Positions 2,431 through 33,841 of a stretch of 64,000 nucleotides of DNA are shown one piece after another. The notes under the pieces were generated by a model, which was not told the DNA's origin, searched no databases, and was given only the letters and a program-made list of their open reading frames with translations. Source of the stretch: Antedon mediterranea (Eukaryota; Echinodermata; Crinoidea; Comatulida; Antedonidae). The position numbers and the translations under genes were made by a program. The stretch covers positions 14,442,501 to 14,506,500 of the forward strand of contig NC_092672.1 of assembly GCF_964355755.1 (NCBI RefSeq), read 5' to 3'. Each line of letters opens with the position of its first letter. Position 1 is the first letter of the stretch.

Positions 2431-5400
2431 ATGTACATGTCAATGTTAATCGTTTGTTCACTTACCGTTCCTATTAAGATGGAATTCAGCCACCAAGTAT
2501 ATCTAGATCCCCTGGATAATGTTCAACTACTATGGAGCACAGACAACAGTATGATTAAATTTGAAGTTCGAGCATATACAACTGGCTACGTTGGAATTGG
2601 ATTTTCAAGTAACGGTGGAATGAGAGGATCTGATGTGGTACTTGTATGGGTGAAGGACGGCGTACCTTACATCTCGGTAACGTTCAGTTTTATTTTACTT
2701 TCATATTCATAAATGTTACAGAACCTTTTACTTTTAACTGTCGTTACATCTCATGCCTATTTTACTGTATTACCTGAATTCAGTGTTGCAATTATAATGA
2801 TTTGTAGTTGGCTTTTGCCATATCACTTTTGAAGTGTAGGCCTACCGTAGCAATTTAACATTGTAGTTTTGTAAGATATGATTAATTTATGATATGCCAA
2901 AATTAATATTGAAAATGTGATGATATCTTATTTTAAGGATCGTCACTGTATTGGTAACGAAGAACCCCGTGTTGATACACAAAATGATTATGAATTGCTG
3001 TATGGGAGTGAGGTAGATGGCTTAACAGTAGTTGGATATCAACGCAAAATGATCACATGTGACGTCAACGATTACGACATTACCGTAACTATTTTTCTTT
3101 ATTGTATTATTAATCAATACTAATAATTAATTAATACATACGTTCATTTATAAAGGTTATAGCCGTTTAAATGTAAATGGTTCCTGTCGTATACATGTCT
3201 ATTACTTGAATAGGAACGCTTTATTCAAAAGACAATGTGATTGGATTAGATTGAATTAAATTGATTAAAATGTATTGCGATCATGTAGTGTTTTACGCAA
3301 CACGAAACGGAGATTCACATAACATATATATTTATTTACAGGCTGATACAGTGAGAGTAATCTGGTCATATCACTCGGAGGACCCATTTAATTACACGAA
3401 AGCAACATATCACGGTCCTCGACATCGAGGTGTACGATCAATTATATTTATGGATGTTATTCCTCCAAATGATACTTTGCCGGAAGACGCAAGCAGTTTT
3501 GACTTTCTGATAGATAACGTGAGTCTACTACACAAACATACCAATGTCAATTGTAGAATAAATACTAGGCTACAGCATAGGCCTATAACCATTTTAGATT
3601 ATATATTTTTTAAATCATTTTATTTTCATAACTCTATTATGTAGTAGAGGCCTATCTAATTTACCTTTTTTAGATTCACCCACTTTTATTCACTTCTTTT
3701 TTGCATGTTATAATGTTACATAATGTAACATTTATTTTTGGAAACTAAAGTATTTGGAATAAACAATTTGTGTATACCATGTATTGTATAAACAATGTTT
3801 GTAATACATTTTCTTCATTTTAATAACATTTGATGATAGCTTAGATTGAGAGAAGTAGGCCTACCTAAATTACGTTACCTACCGGTATGCCAGTATTCGT
3901 TGCTTGTATTTCTGTATTTGATTGTAGTTAACGTTTATTGCCTTCCTATTATTGCTATTTTTCCTACTTCAACATAACTTATTTATTTCATTACAGCACT
4001 TTTTAATTGATGTACATTTGTTTGTATTAGACTAGTCCAGATAGTCATATTTCCACTCTAATAAGATGCTGTAGGCATTTCGTGTTAAAAGCAAATAAAC
4101 ATGTGTTTTAGGGTAATTTTGGGGTGCTGAATTCAAATCTGCCCAATTTTTAGATCTTCACCCTTAAAATGTGAAAAAAAAAACATGGCGGCTGAAATAG
4201 AGTATTTAAAACTCTAATAACAATATATTATTGTTATAGAAACCATTTTAAACCTGATATTCATTTAAGTCAAGTCACAAGACAAAATACATAGGTATAG
4301 ACACCATTTTAAACCTGCTATGTTACATCATTTAAGTCAAGTCACAAGACAAAATACATAGGTATAGACACCATTTTAAACCTGCTATGTTACATCATTT
4401 AAGTCAAGTCACAAGACAAAATACATAGGTATAGACACCATTTTAAACCTGCTATGTTACATCATTTAAGTCAAGTCACAAGACAAAATACATAGGTATA
4501 GACACCATTTTAAACCTGCTATGTTACATCATTTAAGTCAAGTCACAAGACAAAATACATAGGTATAGACACCATTTTTAACTTGCTATGTTACATAAAA
4601 GTCGAGTTATAAGCCAAAATACGTTTAAAATGTGGCCATCTTGGATTTCAAATTTTAAGGGTAAAGATATGAAAATAAGGCCGGGTAAACAGCAGATTTA
4701 AATTCAGCACCCCGAAATTACCCTAAAACACATTTTTATTCGCTTTTACACGAAATGCCTACAGCATTTCATTTTTCTCAAATCTTGACTAGTCTATATT
4801 TTTATAGTCCTAAAACATTTCGTATATTTTCCAGATTATCGTACCAAATGATACTGATACAACTTACTGGTTTTACCACATGCAACTTCCAAGGCTTGCA
4901 AACGAAAATCATATTATTCGGGTACGAACACTATTTTATGAAATCTATAAAGTTAATGAAATTAATAATAAACGTGTCTTCAGTATAAATAAATAACAAA
5001 ACATCATGTCATCGTTATTGAGGTTTATTAGTTGGAATTTCCTGATTATATATATTATTTCTTTTAAGATTGATCCCGTAATACAACCAGGAAATGAGGG
5101 AATTGTTCACCATTTAATTGTAAAGGAGTGTCATGGACTTGGAAGGATTAATGGCACTGGAAGTCTTAATATAAAAAGTAAAGATATGTATATGTTTAAA
5201 TCCTGTTCCAAACAGATTTATGCATGGTCCGTTGGAGGAGGAGTAAGTCAAACAATAACTACATAAAATTGATTGTTTATACCATCTTTTTTACACACTT
5301 ATTTCATTCATATAAATCATTAATGTGTATCCATTGTCCTATGTTAAAATAATGCCGCGCGGTCTACATAGGCTACATAGAGCAGTCAATATTTATGAAT

Positions 5401-8400: not shown

Positions 8401-9079
8401 GCCTCTCCAATAAAACATCACTTTGAATAATAATCATTATACTATTTGTAGTAGAATTCATCGCACTGTTATCTACAATTTACCAAGCATTTGTTATTCT
8501 TTTTTACCACTTTTCATATCTATTAGAGGATTTCATTTGATTATAAATGTTACCATAAAATTATTATTAAAACTAAAAAAATTAACATATATCCCTCGAA
8601 TAACCACACCCTCAAATAAACTCCGCCTCTCCAAAGGGCCCTACCAAACAATAAACACTATACTTTAAAATGTTATTAATCATCTAAAACACTGTGAAAC
8701 AGAGTAGTTTAGTTTTACGAATGTCAAGCATTTTCAATAATGGTAACCGACAGAAAACGTACAAGGAGAACATTTTTATCATTCCGAGAACCATCGTCTA
8801 CACTTCCTAGAGGGGGAGCGAGCGAAGTTTAGTGCTAATTACAGTTAGTGCTCAGTCGATATCATCCATTGACTAGTTATATTTTAGCGTGGTTCTTACA
8901 TATTACTATATTTATGCATTTATACATGGTGTCTGCCTTTCTGTTTAAAAGTCTAAAATACCAATCTTGTGTATAGGCATTGACGTTTCCAGAGCATGTG
9001 GGGTATCGGATAGGCGGTGAAAATGAGATAAAGTATTTGCAGTTAAACATACACTACGATAATCCTCAGTTTCTTACAG
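2431..9079 (+). CDS. MOXD1: DBH-like monooxygenase (MOXD1 type), exons 1-6
   Basis: N-terminal half of a copper type II ascorbate-dependent monooxygenase of the dopamine beta-hydroxylase/MOXD1 family, expected in the secretory pathway. Exons are 2431-2676, 2938-3084, 3342-3518, 4835-4921, 5069-5242 and 8977-9079. All junctions are GT-AG; exons 1-5 end in phase 0 and exon 6 in phase 1. Residues 1-15 form a short hydrophobic leader. A DOMON domain follows (TGYVGIGFS, CDVNDYDIT), then the N-terminal copper domain with H233-H234 in HHLIVKEC and H303 in NIHYDNP, the expected CuH ligands. The start is the first ATG after an in-frame TAG at 2398-2400. A foldback element sits in the intron before exon 4, and a minisatellite plus a Mutator-like element in the intron before exon 6. 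Exon 6 ends three bases before a giant palindromic insertion. Family assignment is confident; the substrate is unknown. Confidence 0.9.
4029..4795. mobile_element. Foldback element with 67-bp tandem core
   Basis: Imperfect inverted arms at about 4029-4200 and 4620-4795 both end in the sequence AGACTAGTC. They share an ordered set of words, including GCTGTAGGCATTTCGTGT and TTTTAGGGTAATTT. The core (about 4240-4605) holds roughly five near-identical 67-bp tandem units. It lies wholly within the intron between exons 3 and 4 of the monooxygenase gene. No coding capacity and no clear target duplication. Confidence 0.75.
5515..6590. repeat. Minisatellite, about 30-bp degenerate units
   Basis: Long degenerate tandem array of units built on ATCCATCCATCAACTTCG and TCATTCGTCCACCA. 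It lies in the intron upstream of monooxygenase exon 6. The absence of stops in several frames is a by-product of the repeat, and the resulting peptides are simple Ser/Ile/His-rich repeats. Confidence 0.9.
7302..8253. mobile_element. Mutator-like non-autonomous DNA transposon
   Basis: Terminal inverted repeats of about 140 bp (7302-7443 and 8112-8253) start GCGATTTTTTTT and are flanked by a 9-bp direct repeat GTCCCGTTA at 7293-7301 and 8254-8262. Long inverted repeats with a 9-bp duplication are the hallmark of Mutator-like elements. The 952-bp element has no transposase. Its interior contains a strong hairpin (about 7563-7604) built on CAGGGAAGAGTTAAATT and its complement. Confidence 0.75.
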
Positions 9080-9082
9080 GTA
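9077..9082. repeat. Target-site duplication, left copy
   Basis: CAGGTA directly abuts the left end of the palindromic element; the same six bases follow its right end. The hexamer spans the exon 6/intron junction, CAG|GTA. Confidence 0.85.
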
Positions 9083-9144
9083 AGTAGTAAATAAGGTACT
9101 TTAGCCCAAAGTTAACCTTGAGGTATTTCCTGATTACGTAATAT

Positions 9145-9367
9145 CCGCCAGGTGTTTCTAATGAAGGTCGTTCATTTCCTGTTATTGTATTAGTTATGTA
9201 ACTTCCGCCAGGTGTTTCTAAAGAAGGTCGTTTCCGCCAGGTGTTTCTAATGAAGGTCGTTCATTTCCTGTTATTGTATTAGTTATGTAACTTCCGCCAG
9301 GTGTTTCTAATGAAGGTCGTTCTTTTCCTGGTTTCGTACTAGTTATGTAATTTCCGCCAGGTGTTTC
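9145..9367. repeat. Subterminal tandem repeats of left arm
   Basis: Five occurrences of CCGCCAGGTGTTTCT in units of about 28-60 bp, each followed by variants of AAGGTCGTTCATTTCCTG. They lie between the terminus and the first gene of the arm, and could serve as transposition-protein binding sites or promoter elements. Confidence 0.85.
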
Positions 9368-9538
9368 TTTGTCTCTTTTTTATTAATTTTTCGGCGTGAG
9401 GTTCTGGTACGTGGTGAGTGACGTCATTACTTTATTTACGATTTAAGACGGTAAAACAAAGTGAAGCGGTTATTGTTGTACTATTCTCCAGTTGTTTTGT
9501 CTATTTTTACGTAGAGTATCTCTTTACAGTATTTCATT

Positions 9539-10093
9539 ATGTCTGGAAGTATATATTTTTCGCAAGGGAGTTGTGTAGATACTGTTATAATAATTAGCGA
9601 TGATGAGGATACTGTTGTTGTTCCAGGCAGTGATATAGATGATTGTTACACGGCGGCCGAAGAGGTTATCCCCGTCGGTATAGAAGAAGGAGTCGAGAGG
9701 AGTAACAGGCCTACAAGTTGTATATTCACGTACGTGGACGAGGTGGAGAGAGAATTTTTGTTGAAAATGGAGCGTTTGGTTAAACAATTGTTTGCTGCTC
9801 AAGTGTTAGCCAAGTGTTGGGTTTTAAGTAAAGCGGCTTGTTATGGTTGTGAATTTGACAGGAGCAGTCAAAAAGATCATGATTTCTGTTGTATGAAGTC
9901 TCTAGAAGAACAGATTGACTATTTTTATCGGGAGGTTCTAGATAAGAAGTATGTTTCAGTCGATACCGTTTACAACGAACTAAATATGCAAGGAGAATAT
10001 TCATTGCCTCGGTATAGACATTTCGTTTATTTTCTTGTCAATACCCTGATTAATTCAGAGGCTATTTTTAAGCTGTTGTGCGAGGATATTTAA
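9539..10093 (+). CDS. Acidic SIM- and CCHC-containing protein of the element, left copy
   Basis: 184-aa single-exon frame starting at an ATG after the subterminal repeats. Residues 16-24 read VIIISDDED, a hydrophobic core followed by acidic residues typical of SUMO-interaction motifs. The region to residue 50 is acidic. Residues 101-117 contain C101-x2-C104-x9-H114-x2-C117, a plausible zinc-binding cluster. The rest looks helical. I do not recognise the family and no enzymatic motif is seen. The next gene starts 160 bp downstream on the same strand. The right-arm copy carries four extra bases near the end and reads to 208 aa, so the true C-terminus is uncertain. Coding status is supported by length, composition and the matching downstream gene, not by homology. 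Confidence 0.65.
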   Translation: MSGSIYFSQGSCVDTVIIISDDEDTVVVPGSDIDDCYTAAEEVIPVGIEEGVERSNRPTSCIFTYVDEVEREFLLKMERLVKQLFAAQVLAKCWVLSKAACYGCEFDRSSQKDHDFCCMKSLEEQIDYFYREVLDKKYVSVDTVYNELNMQGEYSLPRYRHFVYFLVNTLINSEAIFKLLCEDI

Positions 10094-10188
10094 ATTGTGT
10101 TTCGCACGTGTCACGGAAACGATTGACCGGAAATAGCAATCATTATCTTTTTAATTACTGAACTGGGCTACTTTCCTACTAAGCTGCA

Positions 10189-10195
10189 TATATAT
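10189..10195 (+). promoter_or_regulatory. TATA-like box of the PC4-ALKBH2 gene
   Basis: TATATAT lies 58 bases upstream of the ATG at 10253, at a reasonable distance for a short leader. The mirror copy is at 21619-21625 on the minus strand. Confidence 0.4.
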
Positions 10196-10252
10196 CCTGA
10201 TTCAAGCGTAATCGTTCGTTTCACTCTCTGTAACTCTCTACAGTCTATAAAC

Positions 10253-12045
10253 ATGAGTTTCAACTGTTTACCTACTCCGAAATTAGCAATTGGTGAGAAA
10301 GCCCGTAGGACTATGAAAAGAGTTATGGGGAGTTCTAATGGTCAAGCTGACGAGTGTAGCAGTTTAAAATTACCAACGGTGGCTTCTACATCAGCGAATA
10401 TAATGGATTCTATAAAATCTTTTAACGGTCAAACTGACGACTGTAAAGGTTTTAAAAAACCAATGATGCCGTCTACTCACCCAAAGATTACCGTAACATC
10501 AACGAATCGGATTTTCTTGTCTGAAAAACGTCATGTGGTGGCTCAGCGATGGGGTGAAGTTGTTTCTGTTTGCCTCAGAGAGTATTACCAGACGGAAGAA
10601 AATGGTGTCTACAAACCTGGTCCTCTAGGTATTAATTTACCCGTTCTGCTGTGGCAAAAACTTTTCAACAATATTGATTTAATTATTCAGGCACTGGAAG
10701 ACTTACAAAGAGACATTAACATGGTGGAGGCAGTAAGAATCCCCATTTCGGACATAATTCATGTGGTAGTTAGTAACTGGAAAGAAGAACAATTTGTGTG
10801 TATTCGCCGCTATTACCAGTCTGAAGAAGGAGGCAAGTTTAAACCCGGTAAAAAAGGTGTAAACCTTCCAAAGAGTCAGTGGTTCAAGATAATTGAAAAA
10901 CACGGTGAAATACAAAAGATGATTGAGGAGGTTGGTAATGATAATGCGGCTACTGTTGACAAAAGCGATAATGGAGGACGTTTATTCAATTCAGAACATC
11001 AATTGCTACCCCCTGATAAGTTATCGGTGCAAAAGATAATAGGGGAAAATTTAGACTGTGATTACCTTCAACTTCTTGATAAAGGAGCAGCCGATACATT
11101 GTTTAAAAAATGTGAGGAAGAGATTGACTATTTTACCGGAGATCTTGCAAAGGTTAAAGTGTACGGAAAGTGGTTTAATATTCCTAGAAAACAGGTTAGT
11201 TCCATTATGTTTTTATCCGTGGTTTTGTATTAATGACTTGTTAATTACTTGTATATCGTTTCCTTTGTTTTTTCCATAATTTACCGCTGTGTAGCTATAG
11301 GTGTTACTTACTCTTTTTCTGTAAATTATTTTATTTGGGCGTGTTCATTTACGTCTCGTCAAATAATAAATGACTTTCTTTGTATGGTTTCCCCCTCTGC
11401 AGGTTTCGTTCGGCGATTCGGGCTTAACTTACAAATATTCAGGCAATACAGTACCAGCTTTACCGTGGCCACCATTCCTGAAAGATCTCCGCGACCTTTT
11501 AAAATCGGTTACAGGACATTACTTCAATTTTGTTTTGGTCAACCGGTAAATATTCTTGTTTATTATTTTATTCATTTATTTTATTTATTGATTAAAAGGG
11601 TCCATAGTTTACCTCTAAAACGATTGAACACTATCAGTATGATTTCTGCAATTTGTTAGATAAGATTGTTTTAATGGATAATTGGGGTTTTTTTAGTCTC
11701 ATCTTAAAATATTTTATTTTCTATTGTATTTTGTCGTTACTCTATAGATATGCTACTGGAAGTGATTACATTGGCGAACACAAAGATGATGAGAAAGACA
11801 TGAATCACTTTAGTCCAATCGCCTCTGTATCATTGGGGCAGACACGTATGTTTAGATTTCGACATGGTGATGCGCGAGGTAAGAGTCCCAAAAGAATAAT
11901 TGAGCCAGTAACTGTTGATCTTAAACACGGTACATTATTAATGATGAATTATCCCACTAATGAGTACTGGTACCATTCACTGCCTAAAAATCAATCCATC
12001 AAGCTACCAAGAATAAATCTCACGTTTAGAGATATTAAAAGATGA
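10253..12045 (+). CDS. Tandem PC4-like domains fused to ALKBH2-type dioxygenase, left copy
   Basis: Three exons, 10253-11194, 11403-11545 and 11748-12045, with GT-AG introns, give a 460-aa protein. Residues 85-150 and 160-225 are two PC4-like single-stranded-DNA-binding modules (VCLREYYQTEENGVYKPG and VCIRRYYQSEEGGKFKPG, each followed by GxNLP and a W). Residues 268-460 are a full ALKBH2-type Fe(II)/2-oxoglutarate DNA dealkylase: GKWFNIPRKQ, GDSGLTY, iron ligands H373, D375 and H438, and R450 and R456 for 2-oxoglutarate. ALKBH2 removes alkyl adducts such as 1-methyladenine and 3-methylcytosine from DNA in the nucleus. The fusion suggests a protein that binds exposed single strands and repairs or demethylates them, perhaps during element replication; that role is inference. 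An N-terminal NGQ-(A/T)-D-(E/D)-C motif is repeated at residues 29-35 and 58-64. AATAAA occurs at 12551-12556. Confidence 0.88.
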
Positions 12046-15000
12046 GAGAAATGTTACGCAAACACTACAGTCTTTAATAGTGATTGCAGATCTCAAGAAT
12101 ATCAACTGTTCATGATCTGTTCTCATTTAGTATAGTAGTACCAGTTGAATTATTTTTGTGATGATATTCCTAAAAATGGTTGTATTATTGTATTGATGTT
12201 AATTCACTTAGATCTAGGCCTAATTCCATTGATCGTTAATAATCATGTGATTGTTTGTCATTGCGTGGATAATGATTAACTTTACGAATAATTTCTTAAA
12301 AGTAACTTGTAATGTATTTCTAATTGTTAAATACAATTTTTTATGTTTTTAATAAGTGTGTAAGTTTTTCTTTAAAGCGTTTTAATCGTAATTTCAAGAG
12401 TAATAGGTACTTGTAACGTTTGAAACGGACTGGTAGATTAAACAGAACAAAAACAAAAAAAAAAACCCCGTTATAATAACACTAATAATAGCACATATTT
12501 TCGTACATGTATCAATGATTTATCTACATATGTGTGATTAATATTATTACAATAAAGACCATGTAGATCTACGATATTTTTACTGTAAGTGGTATTGTAA
12601 ATAAAAATTATGAATTCAATCGTGAGAAATGACCGATATCTGTGTATTATTTTATATTACTTTTATCATAATTGCAACAACATAAAAAAACTCAGAAATC
12701 ATAATTATCGAATACAGAAAGACGTTTTGGTTACCAATTGTATTTCTTGACACTTAACAGATTTTAACAGAAAACAAGACCTTCAACCGGAGCCAAAAAT
12801 GGAAATTTGTTTACGTGCAGGTTATTGCCATTAGATATTCTTAGAACTACTTTGGTTTTTATAAATATTGTCACTTTTTTTCTACACGTTTATCTACCGA
12901 GATTTTGTTTTTCTTTTTATGAATCTTCCGTTGTTCATAAGCATTATTAATTTGTACAGGCCTTGTTCTTCGCTTTGCAGGCTAAATCTTATAACGGCAT
13001 AGGCCTACATTTTAACGGTTCTTTGTAAATATCCTCTTATTGATTGTTACCTATAGTTCTCTGAATGTTTTAATTTACCGTAGATGATGAAAAAATCCCT
13101 TAATCTAGCACCATTTAAAAAAAAAAAAAAAAAAAAGGTTCCGCAGTAAATGGTTTATTTTTTATGGTATTGATGGAATCATCGAGGCACAATATTAGGC
13201 TGAAAAACATGACGTCACTATTTTAAACTGTTTATCATACAAGAACAATTAACCAATCACAAAACTGAGCTACTGATTTGCGTAGAAGTTTCTGGAAATG
13301 ACAAATTAAGGAAACACGTACACATTAATAAATATATATTAATTTTTATATAAATAATAGACAAAACAAAAGGAAATACACCAAACAAATCATTTTCGTT
13401 ATGAATTTATAATAACTTTAAATTTTGTCCATCACAGGAGACGCGTTTAGCGTTTTCCAATTGTAAAACAGTTTCGCATTGCGTCGCAACACATGCACAT
13501 ACTGCAAGTACTGTACCGTACTGTAACAAGTCTACTGATATGTATTTTGTTGGTCACTCATCATTTTAGCCAACACATTATTTAACTCATCAGGTGTAAT
13601 ATCTTTTCACAAAACCTTTATATCTTTACTTTTTCTTGACAACTCATAACAAACAAGAATAGTACTCTGAATGAGTGTGGGAGAGGTGTGTGGGAGTCCC
13701 ATTCAACTAAACCTTGCCAATTTGTACTCGACCTACGATAAAACCATTTTTTAAAAGTCAACATAGCGACGCGAGAAAAAATTGATAATAGGGATAAAAA
13801 GTTTTTCATGCATTGTTATACAGTAATCTATGTTTTTCGGTGTTTACACCATCTCATTGTTTATAATTACGTTTGTTAATATCGATAGTGTTTCTCTAGC
13901 AGAGTTATATTACTTGTTTATACTCGTATAGTTTGAAGTCCTCCATGTTGTTCGTATATTTTGTAAAAAGTGTACTTATGATTACTTTTAAAAACCAACT
14001 CATTTTATTTGCATTTTATCTACACCTCATGGTTAAAATGTGTTGTTTTTCATAGAGTGTGATGATGCTTAAAACGTTATACTAGTATAACCACCAAAAC
14101 GGTTTATTATCTGTAGGAAATCATCAATTGTAACATGCGGTAAACAATACAAATTAGTTTCACAAATTATTAAAAAATAGCACAATTGTTACAAATGCAT
14201 TTAAGAAAATAAAGGTGTACAGATTTTATTTCGAAAAAGTGTAGGCCTAGACCTACAAAGATAATTTTACATAAAGTGTACAGAATAAATTAACAAAAAA
14301 AAAAAAGGTCACACATACATTAAACTAATTCTTATAAAAGTGTACAGTGTACTTTGGTTATCAGGTATATCAACTTTAATATTTTAAGTATAGGGCCTAT
14401 TTGTGGCCAACACACGGTCCCTTTTAATTGGGGGTAGAGGTCTTTTGCCGTTCGTAATTCAAACTGTTCGTAAAATTGAAGTTAATATTCTGAGATTAGG
14501 CCTATAGCCTATGATTGCAGCTTATACTAGTCAACGGTCTAAAAGAGCTGTAGTGCAGGAGGCGAAACATAAAAGTTCATTAATAAACAGTATATTATAT
14601 TATAACGATAAAGAAACGAATGTACGATACACCAATATAGCAATACAATAACTGATTAACTGAAAACTTGAAGTCTACTGTATTCCTACAATCATTCAAG
14701 TAGACATTGTTTGCTGAGTGTATGGTACTTTCTCCAAAGAGAATTCGAACGATGTGCTTTCGGACGTGTTTCTACGATTATCAGAACGGGTCGATAATGA
14801 AAAAAAAAAAAACCCAAAACAAACAAACTGTCTACTAACTCCCAAAAAAAAAAATCAATACCTATTAAATAAACTGAACCTACCCCACTAAATAATCTCT
14901 TCCATACATCAAAATCGACCGAAAATGATCTGGACATTGAAAAGTGGACACGGTCGTCTGTTCTTCTTTTCTGTTTCCACGGCTTGGGACGACATCCCTG

Positions 15001-15424
15001 TTAGTGATGTACGGTAGCCATGCGGTCTACACACTTATGATGACCACATCGCATAACATGTTCAGGGAACTTATTTTTCAACTCTCTGATACAATGTTTA
15101 AATACAAGTAGACTGGAAACCATTTAGGAACAGGGGGTTTCTAATAATAAAAGTTGTTTAAAACTTTAGTTATTGTCAAGGGGAATTGTTCAAGACTTGG
15201 AGTAAAAATGGTCAAGACCGGGGGAAAATGGTCAAGACAGGAAGAAAATTAAATTTCACCATTTTATAAGTTTATAGTCATTTATTGTGTTAAAATTCAT
15301 TTATTATTAGACCTGTATACGTATTCAATAACAAAAAATAACCTTGTTACATTAATAACATATCTTTAGTGGTTAAGGTAATATATTATTTCTCTGTATA
15401 CTGACGTCACAAATATAGATAAAG
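12046..15424. other. Inner left arm, no gene recognised
   Basis: About 3.4 kb of AT-rich sequence between the dioxygenase gene and the centre. Only frames under 85 codons occur, none resembling a protein. It contains AGGCCTA words common to the surrounding host DNA, a poly-A tract at about 13117-13137 and an AATAAA at 12551. The mirror copy is 16390-19768. Confidence 0.6.
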
Positions 15425-15720
15425 AGAGACTGTAACTAAATGTTTATTACTTATTAGGGTTACAGGGAGAGTTCCATGCAACATTAAAAGGTCAATTAAT
15501 GAGCCACCCAACTTAATTAAGTACCGTTACTTAACAAATGTGCTCAAACTCAATAAGGGTTACAAATCTACAAGAGACTGTAACTAAATGTTTATTACTT
15601 ATTAGGGTTACAGGGAGAGTTCCATGCAACATTAAAAGGTCAATTAATGAGCCACCCAACTTAATTAAGTACCGTTACTTAACAAATGTGCTCAAACTCA
15701 ATAAGGGTTACAAATCTACA
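15425..15720. repeat. 148-bp direct duplication in left arm
   Basis: Two near-identical consecutive units, 15425-15572 and 15573-15720, each beginning AGAGACTGTAACTAAATG. The mirror pair is at 16094-16389. The duplication therefore predates the inversion event or was copied by it. Confidence 0.85.
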
Positions 15721-15873
15721 AAAGAGGACATTTTATTTTTATACCAGGGTTAAACATTAAAAGGTCAATTACTTGAACTCTGAACATGGAAAAAATACTT
15801 GCGTCAATTGACACTTGAACTTGACCTCTACACAAGGACGAATAGACTGTGTCAATTAACCATGACCTCTGGT

Positions 15874-15940
15874 CCCAAAAGCATGGGGGTTTCAGTTTTC
15901 GACTTCGTCGAAATTTGAGAGCCCCCCAATAAAACGGCTG
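15874..15940. other. Central spacer forming an imperfect hairpin
   Basis: The 67 bases separating the perfect arms are themselves an imperfect palindrome. The centre is TTTCGAC-TTC-GTCGAAA (7-bp stem, 3-base loop), flanked by mismatched sequence and then GGGGG facing CCCCC. This resembles the mismatched hairpin left when a covalently closed terminus is copied through. Confidence 0.8.
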
Positions 15941-16389
15941 ACCAGAGGTCATGGTTAATTGACACAGTCTATTCGTCCTTGTGTAGAGGTCAAGTTCAAG
16001 TGTCAATTGACGCAAGTATTTTTTCCATGTTCAGAGTTCAAGTAATTGACCTTTTAATGTTTAACCCTGGTATAAAAATAAAATGTCCTCTTTTGTAGAT
16101 TTGTAACCCTTATTGAGTTTGAGCACATTTGTTAAGTAACGGTACTTAATTAAGTTGGGTGGCTCATTAATTGACCTTTTAATGTTGCATGGAACTCTCC
16201 CTGTAACCCTAATAAGTAATAAACATTTAGTTACAGTCTCTTGTAGATTTGTAACCCTTATTGAGTTTGAGCACATTTGTTAAGTAACGGTACTTAATTA
16301 AGTTGGGTGGCTCATTAATTGACCTTTTAATGTTGCATGGAACTCTCCCTGTAACCCTAATAAGTAATAAACATTTAGTTACAGTCTCT

Positions 16390-19300
16390 CTTTATCTATA
16401 TTTGTGACGTCAGTATACAGAGAAATAATATATTACCTTAACCACTAAAGATATGTTATTAATGTAACAAGGTTATTTTTTGTTATTGAATACGTATACA
16501 GGTCTAATAATAAATGAATTTTAACACAATAAATGACTATAAACTTATAAAATGGTGAAATTTAATTTTCTTCCTGTCTTGACCATTTTCCCCCGGTCTT
16601 GACCATTTTTACTCCAAGTCTTGAACAATTCCCCTTGACAATAACTAAAGTTTTAAACAACTTTTATTATTAGAAACCCCCTGTTCCTAAATGGTTTCCA
16701 GTCTACTTGTATTTAAACATTGTATCAGAGAGTTGAAAAATAAGTTCCCTGAACATGTTATGCGATGTGGTCATCATAAGTGTGTAGACCGCATGGCTAC
16801 CGTACATCACTAACAGGGATGTCGTCCCAAGCCGTGGAAACAGAAAAGAAGAACAGACGACCGTGTCCACTTTTCAATGTCCAGATCATTTTCGGTCGAT
16901 TTTGATGTATGGAAGAGATTATTTAGTGGGGTAGGTTCAGTTTATTTAATAGGTATTGATTTTTTTTTTTGGGAGTTAGTAGACAGTTTGTTTGTTTTGG
17001 GTTTTTTTTTTTTTCATTATCGACCCGTTCTGATAATCGTAGAAACACGTCCGAAAGCACATCGTTCGAATTCTCTTTGGAGAAAGTACCATACACTCAG
17101 CAAACAATGTCTACTTGAATGATTGTAGGAATACAGTAGACTTCAAGTTTTCAGTTAATCAGTTATTGTATTGCTATATTGGTGTATCGTACATTCGTTT
17201 CTTTATCGTTATAATATAATATACTGTTTATTAATGAACTTTTATGTTTCGCCTCCTGCACTACAGCTCTTTTAGACCGTTGACTAGTATAAGCTGCAAT
17301 CATAGGCTATAGGCCTAATCTCAGAATATTAACTTCAATTTTACGAACAGTTTGAATTACGAACGGCAAAAGACCTCTACCCCCAATTAAAAGGGACCGT
17401 GTGTTGGCCACAAATAGGCCCTATACTTAAAATATTAAAGTTGATATACCTGATAACCAAAGTACACTGTACACTTTTATAAGAATTAGTTTAATGTATG
17501 TGTGACCTTTTTTTTTTTTGTTAATTTATTCTGTACACTTTATGTAAAATTATCTTTGTAGGTCTAGGCCTACACTTTTTCGAAATAAAATCTGTACACC
17601 TTTATTTTCTTAAATGCATTTGTAACAATTGTGCTATTTTTTAATAATTTGTGAAACTAATTTGTATTGTTTACCGCATGTTACAATTGATGATTTCCTA
17701 CAGATAATAAACCGTTTTGGTGGTTATACTAGTATAACGTTTTAAGCATCATCACACTCTATGAAAAACAACACATTTTAACCATGAGGTGTAGATAAAA
17801 TGCAAATAAAATGAGTTGGTTTTTAAAAGTAATCATAAGTACACTTTTTACAAAATATACGAACAACATGGAGGACTTCAAACTATACGAGTATAAACAA
17901 GTAATATAACTCTGCTAGAGAAACACTATCGATATTAACAAACGTAATTATAAACAATGAGATGGTGTAAACACCGAAAAACATAGATTACTGTATAACA
18001 ATGCATGAAAAACTTTTTATCCCTATTATCAATTTTTTCTCGCGTCGCTATGTTGACTTTTAAAAAATGGTTTTATCGTAGGTCGAGTACAAATTGGCAA
18101 GGTTTAGTTGAATGGGACTCCCACACACCTCTCCCACACTCATTCAGAGTACTATTCTTGTTTGTTATGAGTTGTCAAGAAAAAGTAAAGATATAAAGGT
18201 TTTGTGAAAAGATATTACACCTGATGAGTTAAATAATGTGTTGGCTAAAATGATGAGTGACCAACAAAATACATATCAGTAGACTTGTTACAGTACGGTA
18301 CAGTACTTGCAGTATGTGCATGTGTTGCGACGCAATGCGAAACTGTTTTACAATTGGAAAACGCTAAACGCGTCTCCTGTGATGGACAAAATTTAAAGTT
18401 ATTATAAATTCATAACGAAAATGATTTGTTTGGTGTATTTCCTTTTGTTTTGTCTATTATTTATATAAAAATTAATATATATTTATTAATGTGTACGTGT
18501 TTCCTTAATTTGTCATTTCCAGAAACTTCTACGCAAATCAGTAGCTCAGTTTTGTGATTGGTTAATTGTTCTTGTATGATAAACAGTTTAAAATAGTGAC
18601 GTCATGTTTTTCAGCCTAATATTGTGCCTCGATGATTCCATCAATACCATAAAAAATAAACCATTTACTGCGGAACCTTTTTTTTTTTTTTTTTTTTAAA
18701 TGGTGCTAGATTAAGGGATTTTTTCATCATCTACGGTAAATTAAAACATTCAGAGAACTATAGGTAACAATCAATAAGAGGATATTTACAAAGAACCGTT
18801 AAAATGTAGGCCTATGCCGTTATAAGATTTAGCCTGCAAAGCGAAGAACAAGGCCTGTACAAATTAATAATGCTTATGAACAACGGAAGATTCATAAAAA
18901 GAAAAACAAAATCTCGGTAGATAAACGTGTAGAAAAAAAGTGACAATATTTATAAAAACCAAAGTAGTTCTAAGAATATCTAATGGCAATAACCTGCACG
19001 TAAACAAATTTCCATTTTTGGCTCCGGTTGAAGGTCTTGTTTTCTGTTAAAATCTGTTAAGTGTCAAGAAATACAATTGGTAACCAAAACGTCTTTCTGT
19101 ATTCGATAATTATGATTTCTGAGTTTTTTTATGTTGTTGCAATTATGATAAAAGTAATATAAAATAATACACAGATATCGGTCATTTCTCACGATTGAAT
19201 TCATAATTTTTATTTACAATACCACTTACAGTAAAAATATCGTAGATCTACATGGTCTTTATTGTAATAATATTAATCACACATATGTAGATAAATCATT

Positions 19301-19768
19301 GATACATGTACGAAAATATGTGCTATTATTAGTGTTATTATAACGGGGTTTTTTTTTTTGTTTTTGTTCTGTTTAATCTACCAGTCCGTTTCAAACGTTA
19401 CAAGTACCTATTACTCTTGAAATTACGATTAAAACGCTTTAAAGAAAAACTTACACACTTATTAAAAACATAAAAAATTGTATTTAACAATTAGAAATAC
19501 ATTACAAGTTACTTTTAAGAAATTATTCGTAAAGTTAATCATTATCCACGCAATGACAAACAATCACATGATTATTAACGATCAATGGAATTAGGCCTAG
19601 ATCTAAGTGAATTAACATCAATACAATAATACAACCATTTTTAGGAATATCATCACAAAAATAATTCAACTGGTACTACTATACTAAATGAGAACAGATC
19701 ATGAACAGTTGATATTCTTGAGATCTGCAATCACTATTAAAGACTGTAGTGTTTGCGTAACATTTCTC
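16390..19768. other. Inner right arm, no gene recognised
   Basis: Mirror of 12046-15424, with the same absence of recognisable coding sequence. Confidence 0.6.
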
Positions 19769-21561
19769 TCATCTTTTAATATCTCTAAACGTGAGATTTA
19801 TTCTTGGTAGCTTGATGGATTGATTTTTAGGCAGTGAATGGTACCAGTACTCATTAGTGGGATAATTCATCATTAATAATGTACCGTGTTTAAGATCAAC
19901 AGTTACTGGCTCAATTATTCTTTTGGGACTCTTACCTCGCGCATCACCATGTCGAAATCTAAACATACGTGTCTGCCCCAATGATACAGAGGCGATTGGA
20001 CTAAAGTGATTCATGTCTTTCTCATCATCTTTGTGTTCGCCAATGTAATCACTTCCAGTAGCATATCTATAGAGTAACGACAAAATACAATAGAAAATAA
20101 AATATTTTAAGATGAGACTAAAAAAACCCCAATTATCCATTAAAACAATCTTATCTAACAAATTGCAGAAATCATACTGATAGTGTTCAATCGTTTTAGA
20201 GGTAAACTATGGACCCTTTTAATCAATAAATAAAATAAATGAATAAAATAATAAACAAGAATATTTACCGGTTGACCAAAACAAAATTGAAGTAATGTCC
20301 TGTAACCGATTTTAAAAGGTCGCGGAGATCTTTCAGGAATGGTGGCCACGGTAAAGCTGGTACTGTATTGCCTGAATATTTGTAAGTTAAGCCCGAATCG
20401 CCGAACGAAACCTGCAGAGGGGGAAACCATACAAAGAAAGTCATTTATTATTTGACGAGACGTAAATGAACACGCCCAAATAAAATAATTTACAGAAAAA
20501 GAGTAAGTAACACCTATAGCTACACAGCGGTAAATTATGGAAAAAACAAAGGAAACGATATACAAGTAATTAACAAGTCATTAATACAAAACCACGGATA
20601 AAAACATAATGGAACTAACCTGTTTTCTAGGAATATTAAACCACTTTCCGTACACTTTAACCTTTGCAAGATCTCCGGTAAAATAGTCAATCTCTTCCTC
20701 ACATTTTTTAAACAATGTATCGGCTGCTCCTTTATCAAGAAGTTGAAGGTAATCACAGTCTAAATTTTCCCCTATTATCTTTTGCACCGATAACTTATCA
20801 GGGGGTAGCAATTGATGTTCTGAATTGAATAAACGTCCTCCATTATCGCTTTTGTCAACAGTAGCCGCATTATCATTACCAACCTCCTCAATCATCTTTT
20901 GTATTTCACCGTGTTTTTCAATTATCTTGAACCACTGACTCTTTGGAAGGTTTACACCTTTTTTACCGGGTTTAAACTTGCCTCCTTCTTCAGACTGGTA
21001 ATAGCGGCGAATACACACAAATTGTTCTTCTTTCCAGTTACTAACTACCACATGAATTATGTCCGAAATGGGGATTCTTACTGCCTCCACCATGTTAATG
21101 TCTCTTTGTAAGTCTTCCAGTGCCTGAATAATTAAATCAATATTGTTGAAAAGTTTTTGCCACAGCAGAACGGGTAAATTAATACCTAGAGGACCAGGTT
21201 TGTAGACACCATTTTCTTCCGTCTGGTAATACTCTCTGAGGCAAACAGAAACAACTTCACCCCATCGCTGAGCCACCACATGACGTTTTTCAGACAAGAA
21301 AATCCGATTCGTTGATGTTACGGTAATCTTTGGGTGAGTAGACGGCATCATTGGTTTTTTAAAACCTTTACAGTCGTCAGTTTGACCGTTAAAAGATTTT
21401 ATAGAATCCATTATATTCGCTGATGTAGAAGCCACCGTTGGTAATTTTAAACTGCTACACTCGTCAGCTTGACCATTAGAACTCCCCATAACTCTTTTCA
21501 TAGTCCTACGGGCTTTCTCACCAATTGCTAATTTCGGAGTAGGTAAACAGTTGAAACTCAT
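19769..21561 (-). CDS. Tandem PC4-like domains fused to ALKBH2-type dioxygenase, right copy
   Basis: Mirror copy of the left-arm gene. On the minus strand its exons are 21561-20620, 20411-20269 and 20066-19769, with the same 460-aa product. No difference from the left copy was seen. It is convergent with the left gene, so both are transcribed toward the palindrome centre. Iron ligands, PC4-like modules and splice sites are all retained, so the element carries two potentially active copies. Confidence 0.87.
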
Positions 21562-21652
21562 GTTTATAGACTGTAGAGAGTTACAGAGAGTGAAACGAAC
21601 GATTACGCTTGAATCAGGATATATATGCAGCTTAGTAGGAAAGTAGCCCAGT

Positions 21653-22279
21653 TCAGTAATTAAAAAGATAATGATTGCTATTTCCGGTCAATCGTTTCCG
21701 TGACACGTGCGAAACACAATTTAAATATCCTCGCACAATTAACAGCTTAAAAATAGCCTCTGAATTAATCAGGGTATTGACAAGAAAATAAACGAAATGT
21801 CTATACCGAGGCAATGAATATTCTCCTTGCATATTTAGTTCGTTGTAAACGGTATCGACTGAAACATACTTCTTATCTAGAACCTCCCGATAAAAATAGT
21901 CAATCTGTTCTTCTAGAGACTTCATACAACAGAAATCATGATCTTTTTGACTGCTCCTGTCAAATTCACAACCATAACAAGCCGCTTTACTTAAAACCCA
22001 ACACTTGGCTAACACTTGAGCAGCAAACAATTGTTTAACCAAACGCTCCATTTTCAACAAAAATTCTCTCTCCACCTCGTCCACGTACGTGAATATACAA
22101 CTTGTAGGCCTGTTACTCCTCTCGACTCCTTCTTCTATACCGACGGGGATAACCTCTTCGGCCGCCGTGTAACAATCATCTATATCACTGCCTGGAACAA
22201 CAACAGTATCCTCATCATCGCTAATTATTATAACAGTATCTACACAACTCCCTTGCGAAAAATATATACTTCCAGACAT
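21653..22279 (-). CDS. Acidic SIM- and CCHC-containing protein of the element, right copy
   Basis: Mirror of the left-arm gene at 9539-10093, with the same first 179 residues, including the VIIISDDED motif and the CCHC cluster. A 4-bp AATT present here but not in the left arm shifts the frame after FKLL. The product is 208 aa, with 29 further residues, instead of 184 aa. Either version could be ancestral. No recognised family. Confidence 0.62.
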   Translation of the reverse strand: MSGSIYFSQGSCVDTVIIISDDEDTVVVPGSDIDDCYTAAEEVIPVGIEEGVERSNRPTSCIFTYVDEVEREFLLKMERLVKQLFAAQVLAKCWVLSKAACYGCEFDRSSQKDHDFCCMKSLEEQIDYFYREVLDKKYVSVDTVYNELNMQGEYSLPRYRHFVYFLVNTLINSEAIFKLLIVRGYLNCVSHVSRKRLTGNSNHYLFNY

Positions 22280-22450
22280 AATGAAATACTGTAAAGAGAT
22301 ACTCTACGTAAAAATAGACAAAACAACTGGAGAATAGTACAACAATAACCGCTTCACTTTGTTTTACCGTCTTAAATCGTAAATAAAGTAATGACGTCAC
22401 TCACCACGTACCAGAACCTCACGCCGAAAAATTAATAAAAAAGAGACAAA

Positions 22451-22673
22451 GAAACACCTGGCGGAAATTACATAACTAGTACGAAACCAGGAAAAGAACG
22501 ACCTTCATTAGAAACACCTGGCGGAAGTTACATAACTAATACAATAACAGGAAATGAACGACCTTCATTAGAAACACCTGGCGGAAACGACCTTCTTTAG
22601 AAACACCTGGCGGAAGTTACATAACTAATACAATAACAGGAAATGAACGACCTTCATTAGAAACACCTGGCGG
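22451..22673. repeat. Subterminal tandem repeats of right arm
   Basis: Mirror of 9145-9367, with five occurrences of the complement AGAAACACCTGGCGG. The copy number equals that of the left arm. Confidence 0.85.
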
Positions 22674-22735
22674 ATATTACGTAATCAGGAAATACCTCAA
22701 GGTTAACTTTGGGCTAAAGTACCTTATTTACTACT

Positions 22736-22741
22736 CAGGTA
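22736..22741. repeat. Target-site duplication, right copy
   Basis: CAGGTA directly after the right terminus, matching 9077-9082. It is followed by GGCTAAC, so the pre-insertion splice donor would have read CAG|GTAGGC. Confidence 0.85.
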
Positions 22742-25118: not shown

Positions 25119-28100
25119 GTATTCGTGACAGCTCGGGAGTTCGTATTTATTATACACCAACCCTTCGTCAATATGATTCAAGTATGATGATGATTGGTTT
25201 CCCTGGATCATCTTTGTTTATAATTCCCCCTAGAGAAGAAGCCTTTCGGGTATATGGTTCCTGTAGTGCCACATGTACAAAGCAGGTATTATTTTCAGTT
25301 TTATTCTTTTAAGCCTCAAAACAAGAAAAAAAAAACAATTTTGACAAATGAATACAGTAATGAAAATGAAATACCAGAGAAAGTAGGCCTACCATTATTA
25401 TGATATCCAGTTTTGTATCAATAACGATATAATTATTTGGCATCTTTTGTTGTTTTTGTTGTGGTTAAATATTGTCCCCTTGATAGACGTGTCCCCTGAG
25501 GGATTTGCTGTAGTATCAATATTTCCCCTCAGTGTCCCCTAAATCGGGGTTTCCCAAAAAGGGGTTCTACTGTACATATGTGGTGGTTTAACCGCAGGAA
25601 TAAACTATATTCATCGGTTGTGCAATTTAATATTTAATGTTTTTACATCACAATTAGGTCCAACCCCACGGGCTTTCATATTATAGATTATATTATGTAT
25701 ATTTGTTTGTGCTAAAATTAGTTTGTTTTAAATGCTCCACCATTTTGTCACTATAACCCAGTAGGTTGGAGAGCTGGATTAGGCCCTAAGCAATTAAAAC
25801 CAGGTTCAACACATAATAATGTAACAGTAAAGTATCAATTTATCTATTTATTTTATGATTTGAACATGATAATCCATCTCACAGATGTTGTCTGGGGAAG
25901 AAATGAAGATATTTGCCGTCAGTTTCCATGCACATTTAGCAGGTATGCTTAGAGAGAACGTTTGCTCATTAGTTATACAATGTTTGCTATTACACGCAGT
26001 TTCAAAATACAACACTATATAAATAAAAAATAATGAGATGAATCTAATAATGGACAACCGTAAGATATTAGTCAATACCTTCATTGGTAAAGGTTATTGG
26101 CGGCTCTATCGATTAACAATTTGATATTGTTATTAAACATGTTAATACATACGTTGTGCAAATACATTTAAATTGAAGACTGTCTTATTATTTCCTGTTA
26201 TCTCTCACAATATAATATATAGTTTATGTAGATGTTATAAGTTTATCAGCAAATTTGAATTACACGTTGTGAAAAAATAGTCAACATTTTGGTAACTTAT
26301 AGAGTGTAGGCCTAATATTTGTCTTTTTGATAGCCTGCTTTAAAATATTATTATATCATTTTTTGTAGTTTAAATAATATGAACTTATTGAGGGTTAGAT
26401 CATAGTTGAGCCTAAAGAAACACAATGAAAATATATATATATTAGATTAGCGTTAATTGTTAGGTTATTATTGATAATCAGGTTAGTTAGATCACGTCAT
26501 GGCTAAAATTAGATTCTCTATTTTTCTTAAACTACAATCTTATGAGAAATCAGATCTAAATTAACAACACTAAAATGATATTCACTTTTTACAGCAATTG
26601 CTATGCGCCTAACACACTATCGCAATGGAAAATATATCGGCGAAATTTCACGAGATAAAACATATGACTTTAATTTACAAGAATTTCGATACCTAAAAGA
26701 CGAGTGGATTGTCAAACCGGTAAGAATCACTTTATTTTAAATTCACATTTCAAAAATAAAGTTTAGTATTTATAGATTTTTTTCCGATAACATATTTTAA
26801 AAGTTATACTGTTTTATATTCATTTGTTTCAAAACATATTATAGGGAGATGATCTACTAGTTGAATGTGTATACAAGACGATGGATAGAGAAAAGGTTAC
26901 ATTTGTAAGTAGGCCTACTTATTATTAACAATATTCCTAATGGTGTAAATTATTTGTGTATATTAAACTAAAACGTTACTACGGCAACGGTAATATTTTG
27001 TTCGGAATGGAGGCTAGCGATAGTTTCTCAGAGCGCCGGAACGAATCCGGTCACGATGTGAAAGTTTGAACTTTATACATGCTATTCAGACCATTAAACC
27101 AAAGCTGTATTTTAAAGTAAAATTCAACACAAACATTTAAGTAAATAAAGTATTAATTATTATTACGAAGTAACGAATACAAATTGAAAACCACATACTT
27201 AAATCTTGATTAAGCTTAGTATATGTCACTTTTTTCCCTTCACTACTAACTCCGTAGCAACTGTATTGCAGTTTTGAAAATGTATTGCTCTGTTCGATAT
27301 TTTATTAAATTGTTTTTCAATATAATATTATTTTTCAAGGGAGGACTTTCGTCGAGAGATGAAATGTGCTCGGCGTTTATATTTTACTATCCTAAAGTAA
27401 ACGCTGGCAATTGCTACAGCGTTCCGCAACAAAAGAACCTTCATCTGAACCTTGATAATTCAAAGTAAGTTACGGTAAATTATTGGTTTTGTTGAGGTCC
27501 GGTATTCAATGTGGGTGTCGTGTAACTCCATTCCATGACGCTCATTCTGCTGTACCACTGTGGGGTTATATCAATAAAGCATAGGAATTTAGGACCAGGA
27601 ATTACAGTACCCTTTTCAACATTTTGTTTCGCTTTCCGTAATCATTTTATTGTTTATTATTTAATATTAATTCTATAATCATATAGAACTTCAACTCAGT
27701 TAAAACAACTTTTATGTATCTATCTTAAAATTGTACATTTATATTTTAATCACATTTAGTTCTAATGTCCCTAATTAAATATAGGCCCACTCTGAATCTC
27801 CTCTTAAATAGGAACTTATGCAGATTGAAAATGTCCTTGACAACACTGTCCCCAAATTATTGAATAGGTCGGAACCCTCTGGCAAATTATTGATAGATAT
27901 TGAATCGCAAAAGAGTCAGAACAACTGTCCATTACATTCTCCTCCGTGATAAGTGGGCACAGTAGCCTAAGATGCACGTAGAAGCACAAACTTCAGATAT
28001 AGGAACAAAGATAAATCTGATCTATAAAAATGTATAAATACATATAAGTATAGTGGTAATATAGCTTGGTTAATAGCTCAACAACATACAGCTTCTTACG

Positions 28101-29091
28101 TAAGGCGATGTTTGGAATTCGAAAAAGCTGATGCGGTCCTTACCTTCCACAATTGTATATGTAATCTACGGAACAATCTTGCCTATGGATGGCAATTTTT
28201 GTTTAAAATCTGGAATTTATAAAGGAACCGCACCTTCTTTCTTTGTCAACATATAGGCTACTCGTATGAATGGATGGAATATTTTATTTACAGTATAAAA
28301 ATGTCATTGGCCAAATAAACTAAAACGTCAGGTAAACCACCACCACTAGTAAGTAAGTGTAGGCCTATTATAATAATTACTCACAGCAGAATATTATGTA
28401 ATCTCTAATTTTTTTTACAATTATGTAGAGATGTACGTGAATCAATAGAAAGCATAGAATGGACAGATGAAAAAAGAAATGTTATCAGAAACTGGTGGTA
28501 TGATACACCCAGAATGTCACGGTGTACAAGCAATTTCCTTGAGGTAAGATATTATGGTATTACGATAATAGTGAATTTAAATAGGCTAAGTCGAAGTGAT
28601 ATGTTTAGTGAAAATTAATTCTTAATAAATTGTGCTGTGTTCTTTTGAAAGGGGAAATATAAAAACAATGTAGGCCTATATTGAAAGTTTTTTCGCCACT
28701 CTTAATAAACCCTTTTCTTTTGATACATTGAGTTCCATTTTTATCTCCAACTTGTATCTTTAATGTCAGTTAGGCCTATTAGGCCTACAAAAAAGAAATA
28801 TTGATTTAATAATGTATTTCTCTTTGATTTTAGGGATATAAAAATTATTATGAAGAAACAAGTTTGAAAGAGATCATTGCCTTACAAAATGGATCAGTTG
28901 AGGAGAGTAACAGTAATTGTTCAAGTTACGAAGACCGTTCAACAAGTCAGGGAAGAGTGAATCTCACTGTACCGAAATTAAATACAGTCAACTCTCCCAA
29001 TACCGGACACCCTTGGGCGGGCATATATTTTCCGGTTTTTCGAAAGTCCGGTTTCCTGAAAACATTTTTAAAGTCATCACGTTGTCACTGA
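25119..29091 (+). CDS. MOXD1: DBH-like monooxygenase (MOXD1 type), exons 7-13, altered C-terminus
   Basis: C-terminal half of the same monooxygenase. Exons are 25119-25285, 25885-25942, 26595-26719, 26845-26904, 27340-27464, 28429-28543 and 28834-29091. Phases join without a break to exon 6 (split codon G|GT). The second copper domain has H382 and H384 in FHAHLA and M457 in DEMC, the expected CuM ligands, so the active site looks intact. The last exon is interrupted after base 28984 by a 1308-bp transposon. Translation then runs 35 codons into the element and stops at 29091, for 613 aa in total. Without the element, the frame would continue at 30295 with the hydrophobic tail IILFAFLFLVF and stop at 30327-30329, giving about 589 aa. 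Human MOXD1 also ends in a hydrophobic segment, so this allele may have lost a membrane anchor. Intron 6 is 16 kb because of the palindromic insertion. Confidence 0.88.
25470..25575 (-). mobile_element. Relic of a mariner-like terminal repeat
   Basis: On the minus strand it begins TACAGTAGAACCCC and contains repeated runs such as GGGGACACTGAGGGG. This resembles the ends of pogo/Tc1-mariner elements. No partner end was found. Confidence 0.3.
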
Positions 29092-30292: not shown

Positions 30293-30399
30293 TATAATAC
30301 TCTTTGCATTCCTTTTTCTTGTATTTTAAACATGTATTCCCTCCAATCAAAAGACTTTTTATGCTGTACCATGTTTATAATGTAAAGTGCCGCCGAAAT

Positions 30400-33839: not shown

Positions 33840-33841
33840 TA

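Follow-up and report, generated by a model that had tools for sequence, protein, structure and literature searches.

What is a long, near-perfect palindrome doing inside a gene of the crinoid Antedon mediterranea, and how did it come to be there? The palindrome lies at positions 9083-22735 of a 64-kb stretch of DNA (the window, C3:14442501-14506500), which we analysed against the whole genome (354.4 Mb in 18 contigs); other loci are labelled by contig (C) and position in Mb, for example C5:20.98. A first-pass annotation of the window had described the palindrome as an element with the ends of a Polinton, or Maverick, and none of the Polinton core genes. We find that palindromes with Maverick ends have inserted as units at several sites in this genome. 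We consider it probable that they are a non-autonomous Maverick/Polinton satellite, each an inverted dimer of one Maverick end, mobilised in trans by Maverick enzymes.

The palindrome and its ends

By self-BLAST of the window, 9083-22735 matched its own reverse complement at 99.7%, and the two arms (6791 and 6795 bp), once aligned, differed by only one 4-bp indel. These comparisons bore out the arm lengths, the 67-bp spacer and the flanking CAGGTA given by the first-pass annotation, and its 5'-AG termini proved to be, more specifically, AGTAGT//ACTACT. The window holds 10 AGTAGT and 11 ACTACT sites, and the sole pair 0.3-40 kb apart with an identical flanking 6-mer is the pair of palindrome ends. 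When one flank was inverted, 14 of the outer 40 positions agreed, so neither flank is an inverted copy of the other. In vertebrate Mavericks the most frequent end motif is 5'-(AGT)2//(ACT)2-3', and their duplications are 6 bp long (excerpts of PMC8097293). IS3EU/GingerRoot elements, which have TA..TA (or TG..CA) termini and 6-bp duplications (excerpts of PMC10045372), and IS481EU elements were considered for their duplication length and dropped because their termini do not fit the AGTAGT of the window.

Each arm carries a small open reading frame (ORF1) and a predicted three-exon gene in which two PC4 domains are fused to ALKBH2. The gene set of an autonomous Maverick (PolB, integrase, ATPase, protease and capsid) was not recognised. 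When five frames of the element were compared with Pfam, nothing but PC4 and ALKBH2-type matches passed the cut-off; a search with a Maverick integrase (109 of 543 candidates scored) listed no match within it; and of the frames of at least 45 aa listed for 12046-15873, one was among those scanned, no search being aimed at PolB. The description of Polinton-type ends without recognised core genes thus holds for the window copy. With Mavericks the element has in common the end motif, the 6-bp duplication and sequence shared with a Maverick of the same genome. A telomere-like hairpin in the 67-bp spacer is not claimed, because the spacer folds just modestly better than its shuffles (z of -2.2, with 5 of 200 shuffles equally good).

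Insertion as a unit across the genome

Searches of the genome revealed a family. The arm gave at least 32 matches (14 of 149 candidates scored, so that counts from this search are lower bounds), the 516-bp centre 28, and the terminal 460 bp at least 64 (40 of 57 candidates scored), many of them as inverted pairs. ORF1 gave 74 matches, among them ten inverted pairs: six, including the window, at 95-99% to a Maverick on C10 described below, and four in a second subfamily at 75-76%, with midpoints no more than 0.4 kb away from centre matches. ORF1 is free of internal stops in 18 of the 20 paired arms, the C3:31.22 pair having one stop each; the match in the right arm of C5 is partial, and that arm is interrupted. 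In addition, ten partial ORF1 matches lie on one strand within 8.3 kb at C5:21376047-21384311, resembling a tandem array.

We examined 15 terminus pairs for target-site duplications, the window included and the Mavericks and a short copy at C2:23.17 left out. Eleven have a 6-bp duplication and AGTAG-type ends, two have inverted flanks, and two (C9:14.28 and C3:21.94) could not be read, as one end of each was unlocatable. The first-pass annotation had named copies with another duplication length or terminus as a refuting result; another duplication length was not seen. Eight of the elements share the window's centre sequence (centre A) and have eight different 6-bp duplications (Table 1). They measure 12.0-14.6 kb, five of the eight falling at 13.6-13.8 kb. 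Agreement of inverted flanks outside the ends was 22/40 positions at C4:35.60 and 7-15/40 at the other pairs with a duplication; the C4:35.60 case is weaker, because its AGCGCT is its own reverse complement. With one centre recurring in eight insertions, each with its own duplication, the palindrome is mostly older than its insertion. Integration as a unit, proposed earlier from the window, therefore holds, with the duplication and differing flanks there and with other insertions that have duplications of their own.

In the second subfamily, three elements have ends 99-100% alike over 530-578 bp; that these are palindromic rests on their ends, paired ORF1 and centre. C3:31.22 has paired ORF1 and a centre match, and further centre matches lie at C3:21.95, C9:14.86, C5:20.87 and C6:26.87.

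A second centre (centre B) was found at C8:7.70 and C3:21.74, whose middles are palindromic (98.6 and 97.5%, counting mismatches in the spacer) and enclose a spacer of 37-39 bp that the two have in common and that is unlike the one at centre A; no clear hairpin was seen in this spacer. C8:20.17 matches in its ends and duplication and is not counted as a proven palindrome, because its fetched middle matches itself for 148 bp only. The Maverick integrase search yielded, besides longer matches, at least 45 that cover only the start of the query. These include 14 neighbouring pairs, 1-15 kb apart, and in all 14 the members face each other; two belong to C8:7.70 and C8:20.17, and the other twelve are candidates.

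The two arms of one element proved more alike than arms of different elements. Over the 1.3 kb next to centre A, the arms differ at 0 positions in the window, 5 in C5, 1 in C3:13.86 and 5 in C10:20.26, and those of C11 at 0 over 664 bp. Between elements the same 1.3 kb shows 11-28 differences, and 9-13 over 660 bp against the second arm of C11; the exception is C5 versus C3:13.86, with only 2-6. Over the homologous 543 bp at centre B there are 2 and 1 differences within elements and 7-8 between them. This pattern indicates that arms are made or kept alike element by element. Because arms differ little within elements and more between them, the palindrome appears to spread as a unit with its arms homogenised.

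Could the palindromes have been made by the assembly, through fold-back reads or an inverted-repeat mis-traversal that doubled a single arm? The near identity of the window arms, and of the C11 arms next to their centre (100% over 1311 bp), would be expected if so, and two loci have inverted flanks. At C3:13.86 the palindrome runs on into the flank (2986 bp at 99.1%, of which about 1.8 kb is flank), and a 601-bp probe from about 9 kb outside the left end recurs at 100% in the mirror position; at C4:32.03, 985 bp are inverted at 98.8%, about half of them flank. Within C3:13854112-13889016, a third partial arm at C3:13889016 has CATGTT in common with the left end of C3:13.86. The inverted flanks at these two loci may reflect either assembly mis-traversal or local instability. 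However, the window is free of them, with differing flanks that share one duplication, as do 10 other loci; the spacer is asymmetric; and the arms are not identical (5/1283 in C5, 5/1294 in C10:20.26, 2/542 in C8:7.70 and 1/543 in C3:21.74). An artefact is thus, in our judgement, very unlikely.

The shared centre also bears on growth in place, in which an element with short terminal inverted repeats (TIRs) inserted and break-induced replication or gene conversion then extended one TIR over the other half. Galileo derivatives with long TIRs that recruited inner sequence have been described (excerpts of PMC3573991), and a short-TIR copy with the ALKBH2 gene exists here, at C2:23171167-23176033 with duplication TACATA. 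That copy could instead be a deletion derivative of a palindrome, and growth in place does not sit well with the same centre in eight insertions with different duplications; we regard it as improbable. The first-pass annotation had supposed that the TIRs swallowed the whole element; what we find points instead to one Maverick end that was duplicated in inverted orientation after it had picked up a host ALKBH2.

Likely parents and captured cargo

A related copy with polymerase and integrase was found at C10:12376826-12393133. This 16,308-bp Maverick has AGTAGT ends and the 6-bp duplication CCTATT, and elements of similar length and ends lie at C9:13250080-13267053 (16,974 bp, duplication TAGGAT) and C3:20019616-20036366 (16,751 bp, GTCACT). 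The C10 copy, the one of the three scanned for domains, encodes PolB (DNA_pol_B_2, 4.6e-45), a chromodomain integrase (rve, 4.7e-13, with Chromo), an A32-like ATPase (Pox_A32, 4.2e-5), an adenovirus-type protease (Peptidase_C5, 1.4e-4) and PC4. Its putative capsid genes are named by size and order as in the module of PMC8097293 (excerpts); Pfam gave no match for the putative major capsid and PW frames, and for the minor capsid frame only one below the cut-off. C10 matches the fetched parts of C9 at 94-97% and those of C3 at 99.4% over long stretches.

The integrase-side terminus of C10 equals that of the window over the 45 bp compared. In C10 and C9, ORF1 and a tandem-PC4 gene adjoin this terminus, and the PC4 gene ends before any ALKBH2. 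In C10, C9 and C3 alike, the main homology between arm and Maverick (about 92-93%) starts at the terminus and stops within PC4, at arm position 1851. Arm positions 3697-3811 (12779-12893), in the non-coding inner arm, also have a mismatch-free 115-bp copy near the polymerase-side end of the C9 Maverick. An arm is thus composed of a Maverick end, the fused ALKBH2, about 3.8 kb otherwise without a match in these Mavericks, and the centre. With the inner arm, apart from the 115 bp, missing from the fetched Maverick stretches, there is no parental sequence on which to place the turning point.

In ORF1 the synonymous difference (dS) from the C10 Maverick is far smaller (5/111) than in PC4 (28.5/140), which hints at an exchange of the terminal kilobase. 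The same mosaic could arise in a chimera, in which an independent fold-back transposon with its inner arms and centre gained Maverick ends, and gene conversion, not replication through a hairpin, keeps the arms alike. The inner arm without a match in the fetched Maverick stretches, bar the 115 bp, fits such an origin, and centre A is found with both ORF1 subfamilies, which differ by about 25%, as a swapping of ends would give. On the other hand, no inner part with ends of its own was recognised in the arm search, within the candidates scored, or in the centre search, several partial centre matches being left out, and Maverick-like sequence stands beside centre B in one of its two copies. We therefore think a chimera unlikely.

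As for the cargo, ORF1 is a relative of the frame at the integrase-side end of Mavericks in this genome and had no relative in a large protein collection or in viral contigs, nor a match in Pfam, PHROGs or PDB. It had been called a small protein with a SUMO-interacting motif (SIM) and CCHC; an acidic SIM-type stretch and a Cys/His cluster are indeed visible, but no family was matched. TTAA at 21739-21742, the sole difference between the window arms, alters the end of ORF1 in the right arm, and the C10 and C9 Mavericks carry the left-arm form, without TTAA, at this site. The PC4 part had no relative in phage records or viral contigs.

In a protein search the top four relatives of the fusion protein were Antedon mediterranea proteins on different contigs, and other Antedon proteins carry ALKBH2 alone or PC4 alone. 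In a tree of 20 sequences the fused ALKBH2 is nested in crinoid ALKBH2 (support for the crinoid set 100/100); the fused copies are supported at 99/97, and the nearest host copy joins at 82/80. Because the fused copies nest inside crinoid ALKBH2, the host lineage is the source of the ALKBH2 in the palindrome. The fused sequence has the HxD, H and R..R positions expected of this enzyme. Exons 2 and 3 of ALKBH2 are present in the copies C5 (left arm), C2:20.96, C2:23.17, C4:32.03, C3:0.47 and C8:19.37, and only exon 2 was seen in C3:13.89. Between the window and C2:23.17 these two exons have dS 4/95 and nonsynonymous difference (dN) 2/340, and between the window and C5 dS 4/95 and dN 3/340; they differ chiefly at silent sites, which, from so few changes, is weak evidence of selection.

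The host gene continues on both sides of the insertion. The exon ending at 9079 and that from about 25119 continue one DBH/MOXD1-like reading frame, which supports the earlier statement that host exons stand in order outside the palindrome, and a DOMON match (Pfam, 3.1e-14) lies upstream; the gene is presumably a MOXD1/DBH-type monooxygenase. The element sits exactly at the exon end ...CTTACAG, where GTA and its own first AGT form a splice donor, GTAAGT (9077-9085 with the preceding CAG). With the donor rebuilt as CAG/GTAAGT, the host gene may still be spliced.

Elsewhere in the window, an element at 51701-60160 has two identical 576-bp long terminal repeats (51701-52276 and 59585-60160), a long gag-like frame (53005-53973) and a pol-like frame (53955-58679), and from these frames we take it to be Ty3/gypsy-like. 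A 1317-bp direct repeat, 100% identical, occupies 28983-30299 and 32530-33846, its starts 3.5 kb apart, and a minisatellite at 45330-45571 has 9 copies of a 27-bp unit (97% matches). Rfam and tRNA scans of the 64-kb window gave no match.

Table 1. Features of the window palindrome and its host gene (window coordinates), and duplications of related elements
Feature	Position	Strand	Remarks
Host exon upstream of insertion	8977..9079	+	reading frame; start inferred
Left target-site duplication CAGGTA	9077..9082	.	host exon 3' end CAG + intron GTA
Left terminus AGTAGT, Maverick end motif	9083..9088	+	sequence; motif in excerpts of PMC8097293
Left arm	9083..15873	+	6791 bp; self-BLAST, arm alignment
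Subterminal tandem repeats, left	9144..9368	.	29/60/89-bp periods; repeat scan
ORF1, left arm	9539..10093	+	184 aa from ATG; SIM-like motif, Cys/His cluster
Fusion gene exon 1, left arm	10253..11194	+	two PC4 domains and ALKBH2 start; predicted splice sites
Fusion gene exon 2 (ALKBH2), left arm	11403..11545	+	predicted
Fusion gene exon 3 (ALKBH2 2OG-Fe(II) core), left arm	11748..12045	+	predicted
Centre-proximal 148-bp direct duplication, left arm	15425..15725	.	repeat scan
Asymmetric spacer, 67 bp	15874..15940	.	holds smaller imperfect hairpin; identical in C5 palindrome
Right arm	15941..22735	-	6795 bp; as left arm bar TTAA insertion 21739-21742
Centre-proximal 148-bp direct duplication, right arm	16089..16389	.	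repeat scan
Fusion gene exon 3, right arm	19769..20066	-	predicted; mirrored from left arm
Fusion gene exon 2, right arm	20269..20411	-	predicted; mirrored from left arm
Fusion gene exon 1, right arm	20620..21561	-	predicted; mirrored coordinates
ORF1, right arm	21653..22279	-	last residues altered by 4-bp insertion
Subterminal tandem repeats, right	22450..22674	.	repeat scan
Right terminus ACTACT, reverse complement of AGTAGT	22730..22735	-	sequence; excerpts of PMC8097293
Right target-site duplication CAGGTA	22736..22741	.	sequence
Next host exon downstream	25119..25287	+	start about 25119, end approximate
Centre-A duplications			window CAGGTA; C5:20.98 CACATC; C10:20.26 AATTAA; C2:34.22 TCCATC
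Centre-A duplications, continued			C11:12.52 GGCAAT; C6:27.40 CACCCC; C9:17.51 AGAGAG; C4:35.60 AGCGCT
Non-centre-A duplications			C3:21.74 TAAAAG; C8:7.70 CGTGTC; C8:20.17 CTTGTG

Probable fold-back copying and the place of the family

How might such an element arise and move? In the history we favour, one Maverick end, with its terminus, ORF1 and tandem-PC4 gene, would have gained a host ALKBH2 gene fused to PC4 and then doubled into an inverted dimer about a fixed centre. As a palindrome this dimer would move and insert, Maverick integrase acting in trans to make the 6-bp duplications and the protein-primed PolB of a helper Maverick copying it in trans; from the ends and duplications in common we infer both kinds of mobilisation. 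The palindromic form probably arises, and is renewed, through fold-back (snap-back) copying in the course of protein-primed replication. More tentatively than for mobilisation in trans, we suggest that such replication may expose long single strands and that a displaced strand folding near a short inverted repeat could prime its own copying round the hairpin, so that an inverted dimer results in which both ends are functional. The arms of a fresh copy would be alike because fold-back copying derives them from one strand.

Several observations weigh against this history. The likeness of the arms fits arm-to-arm gene conversion as well as hairpin copying, and our data do not separate the two. 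C3:13.86 and C4:32.03, with their inverted flanks, lack duplications of their own. Only six of the eight centre-A elements gave a match to the spacer as such; the middle of C11 is longer and altered, and C2:34.22 was matched on one arm only. The fetched Maverick stretches contain nothing of the inner arm (about 12046-15873) but the 115 bp. Constraint on ORF1 is not clearly evident between the window and C5 (dS 3/109, dN 11/443). Finally, trans-mobilisation and the replication intermediates are deduced from integrated copies.

A bolder version, which we hold possible though doubtful, makes the family the integrated form of a two-ended satellite replicon, one end being a protein-primed terminus of Maverick type and the other a hairpin. 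In each round one strand would be copied round the hairpin into an inverted dimer with identical arms, which a helper Maverick would integrate, and the family would be a persistent lineage with host DNA-repair cargo. Its lineage may then be older than the split of the ORF1 subfamilies, unless ends were swapped.

A precedent may exist in yeast, where, reportedly, half of a protein-capped linear plasmid became a hairpin and its inverted dimer (Kikuchi, in 1985). That plasmid is cytoplasmic and not integrated, unlike the palindromes here. The hairpin plasmid is cited in PMC4443254 (excerpts). Snap-back defective genomes of adeno-associated virus are likewise self-complementary and derive from one viral genome end (excerpts of PMC8235507); in contrast, they belong to a parvovirus and are packaged in particles, whereas ours are integrated Maverick-type copies whose mechanism is deduced. 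Origin-dependent inverted-repeat amplification (ODIRA) similarly yields an inverted dimer, through errors of replication at short inverted repeats, and the dimer then integrates, but it is a chromosomal model tested in yeast, with homologous integration (excerpts of PMC4689423).

Among transposons, the 2-TIR and Foldback-like forms of Galileo are also non-autonomous and nearly all inverted arms, some TIRs having grown by recruiting inner sequence; Galileo, however, belongs to the P superfamily, with 7-bp duplications and TIRs of up to about 1.3 kb in described copies (excerpts of PMC3573991), whereas the palindromes have gene-bearing arms of 6.8 kb, Maverick ends and 6-bp duplications. We accordingly do not place them with Foldback/Galileo, and the relatives found are Mavericks. 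With Mavericks they share AGTAGT//ACTACT ends, 6-bp duplications and accessory frames outside the core modules (excerpts of PMC8097293). They differ from them in being palindromes without a recognised core gene, in carrying a spliced host-derived gene fused to PC4, and in the length of their arms, 6.8 kb, where intact vertebrate Mavericks have reported TIRs of 46-1447 bp (same excerpts).

In the open-licence literature, with broader listings covered in part, we found no paper on non-autonomous, defective or palindromic Mavericks/Polintons or on palindromic transposons, and in the open-licence literature none linking adintovirus with PC4. The suggestion of an undescribed non-autonomous or self-folding class stands in that this is a multi-copy palindromic Maverick derivative; it does not stand as a class apart, for the family is tied to Polintons through same-genome relatives with ORF1 and PC4. 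What appears to be new is a Maverick family that is palindromic and non-autonomous and carries cargo captured from its host, its likely parents being in the same genome.

Maverick particles had not been observed as of PMC8097293 (excerpts). A satellite family of this kind would give a handle on Maverick replication and integration, and its mirror-image members, with their like arms, would be a germline record of fold-back copying. The family also shows that a virus-like element can carry a spliced DNA-repair gene of its host, joined to the PC4 gene of the element, and that an animal genome can keep long palindromes that are nearly perfect.

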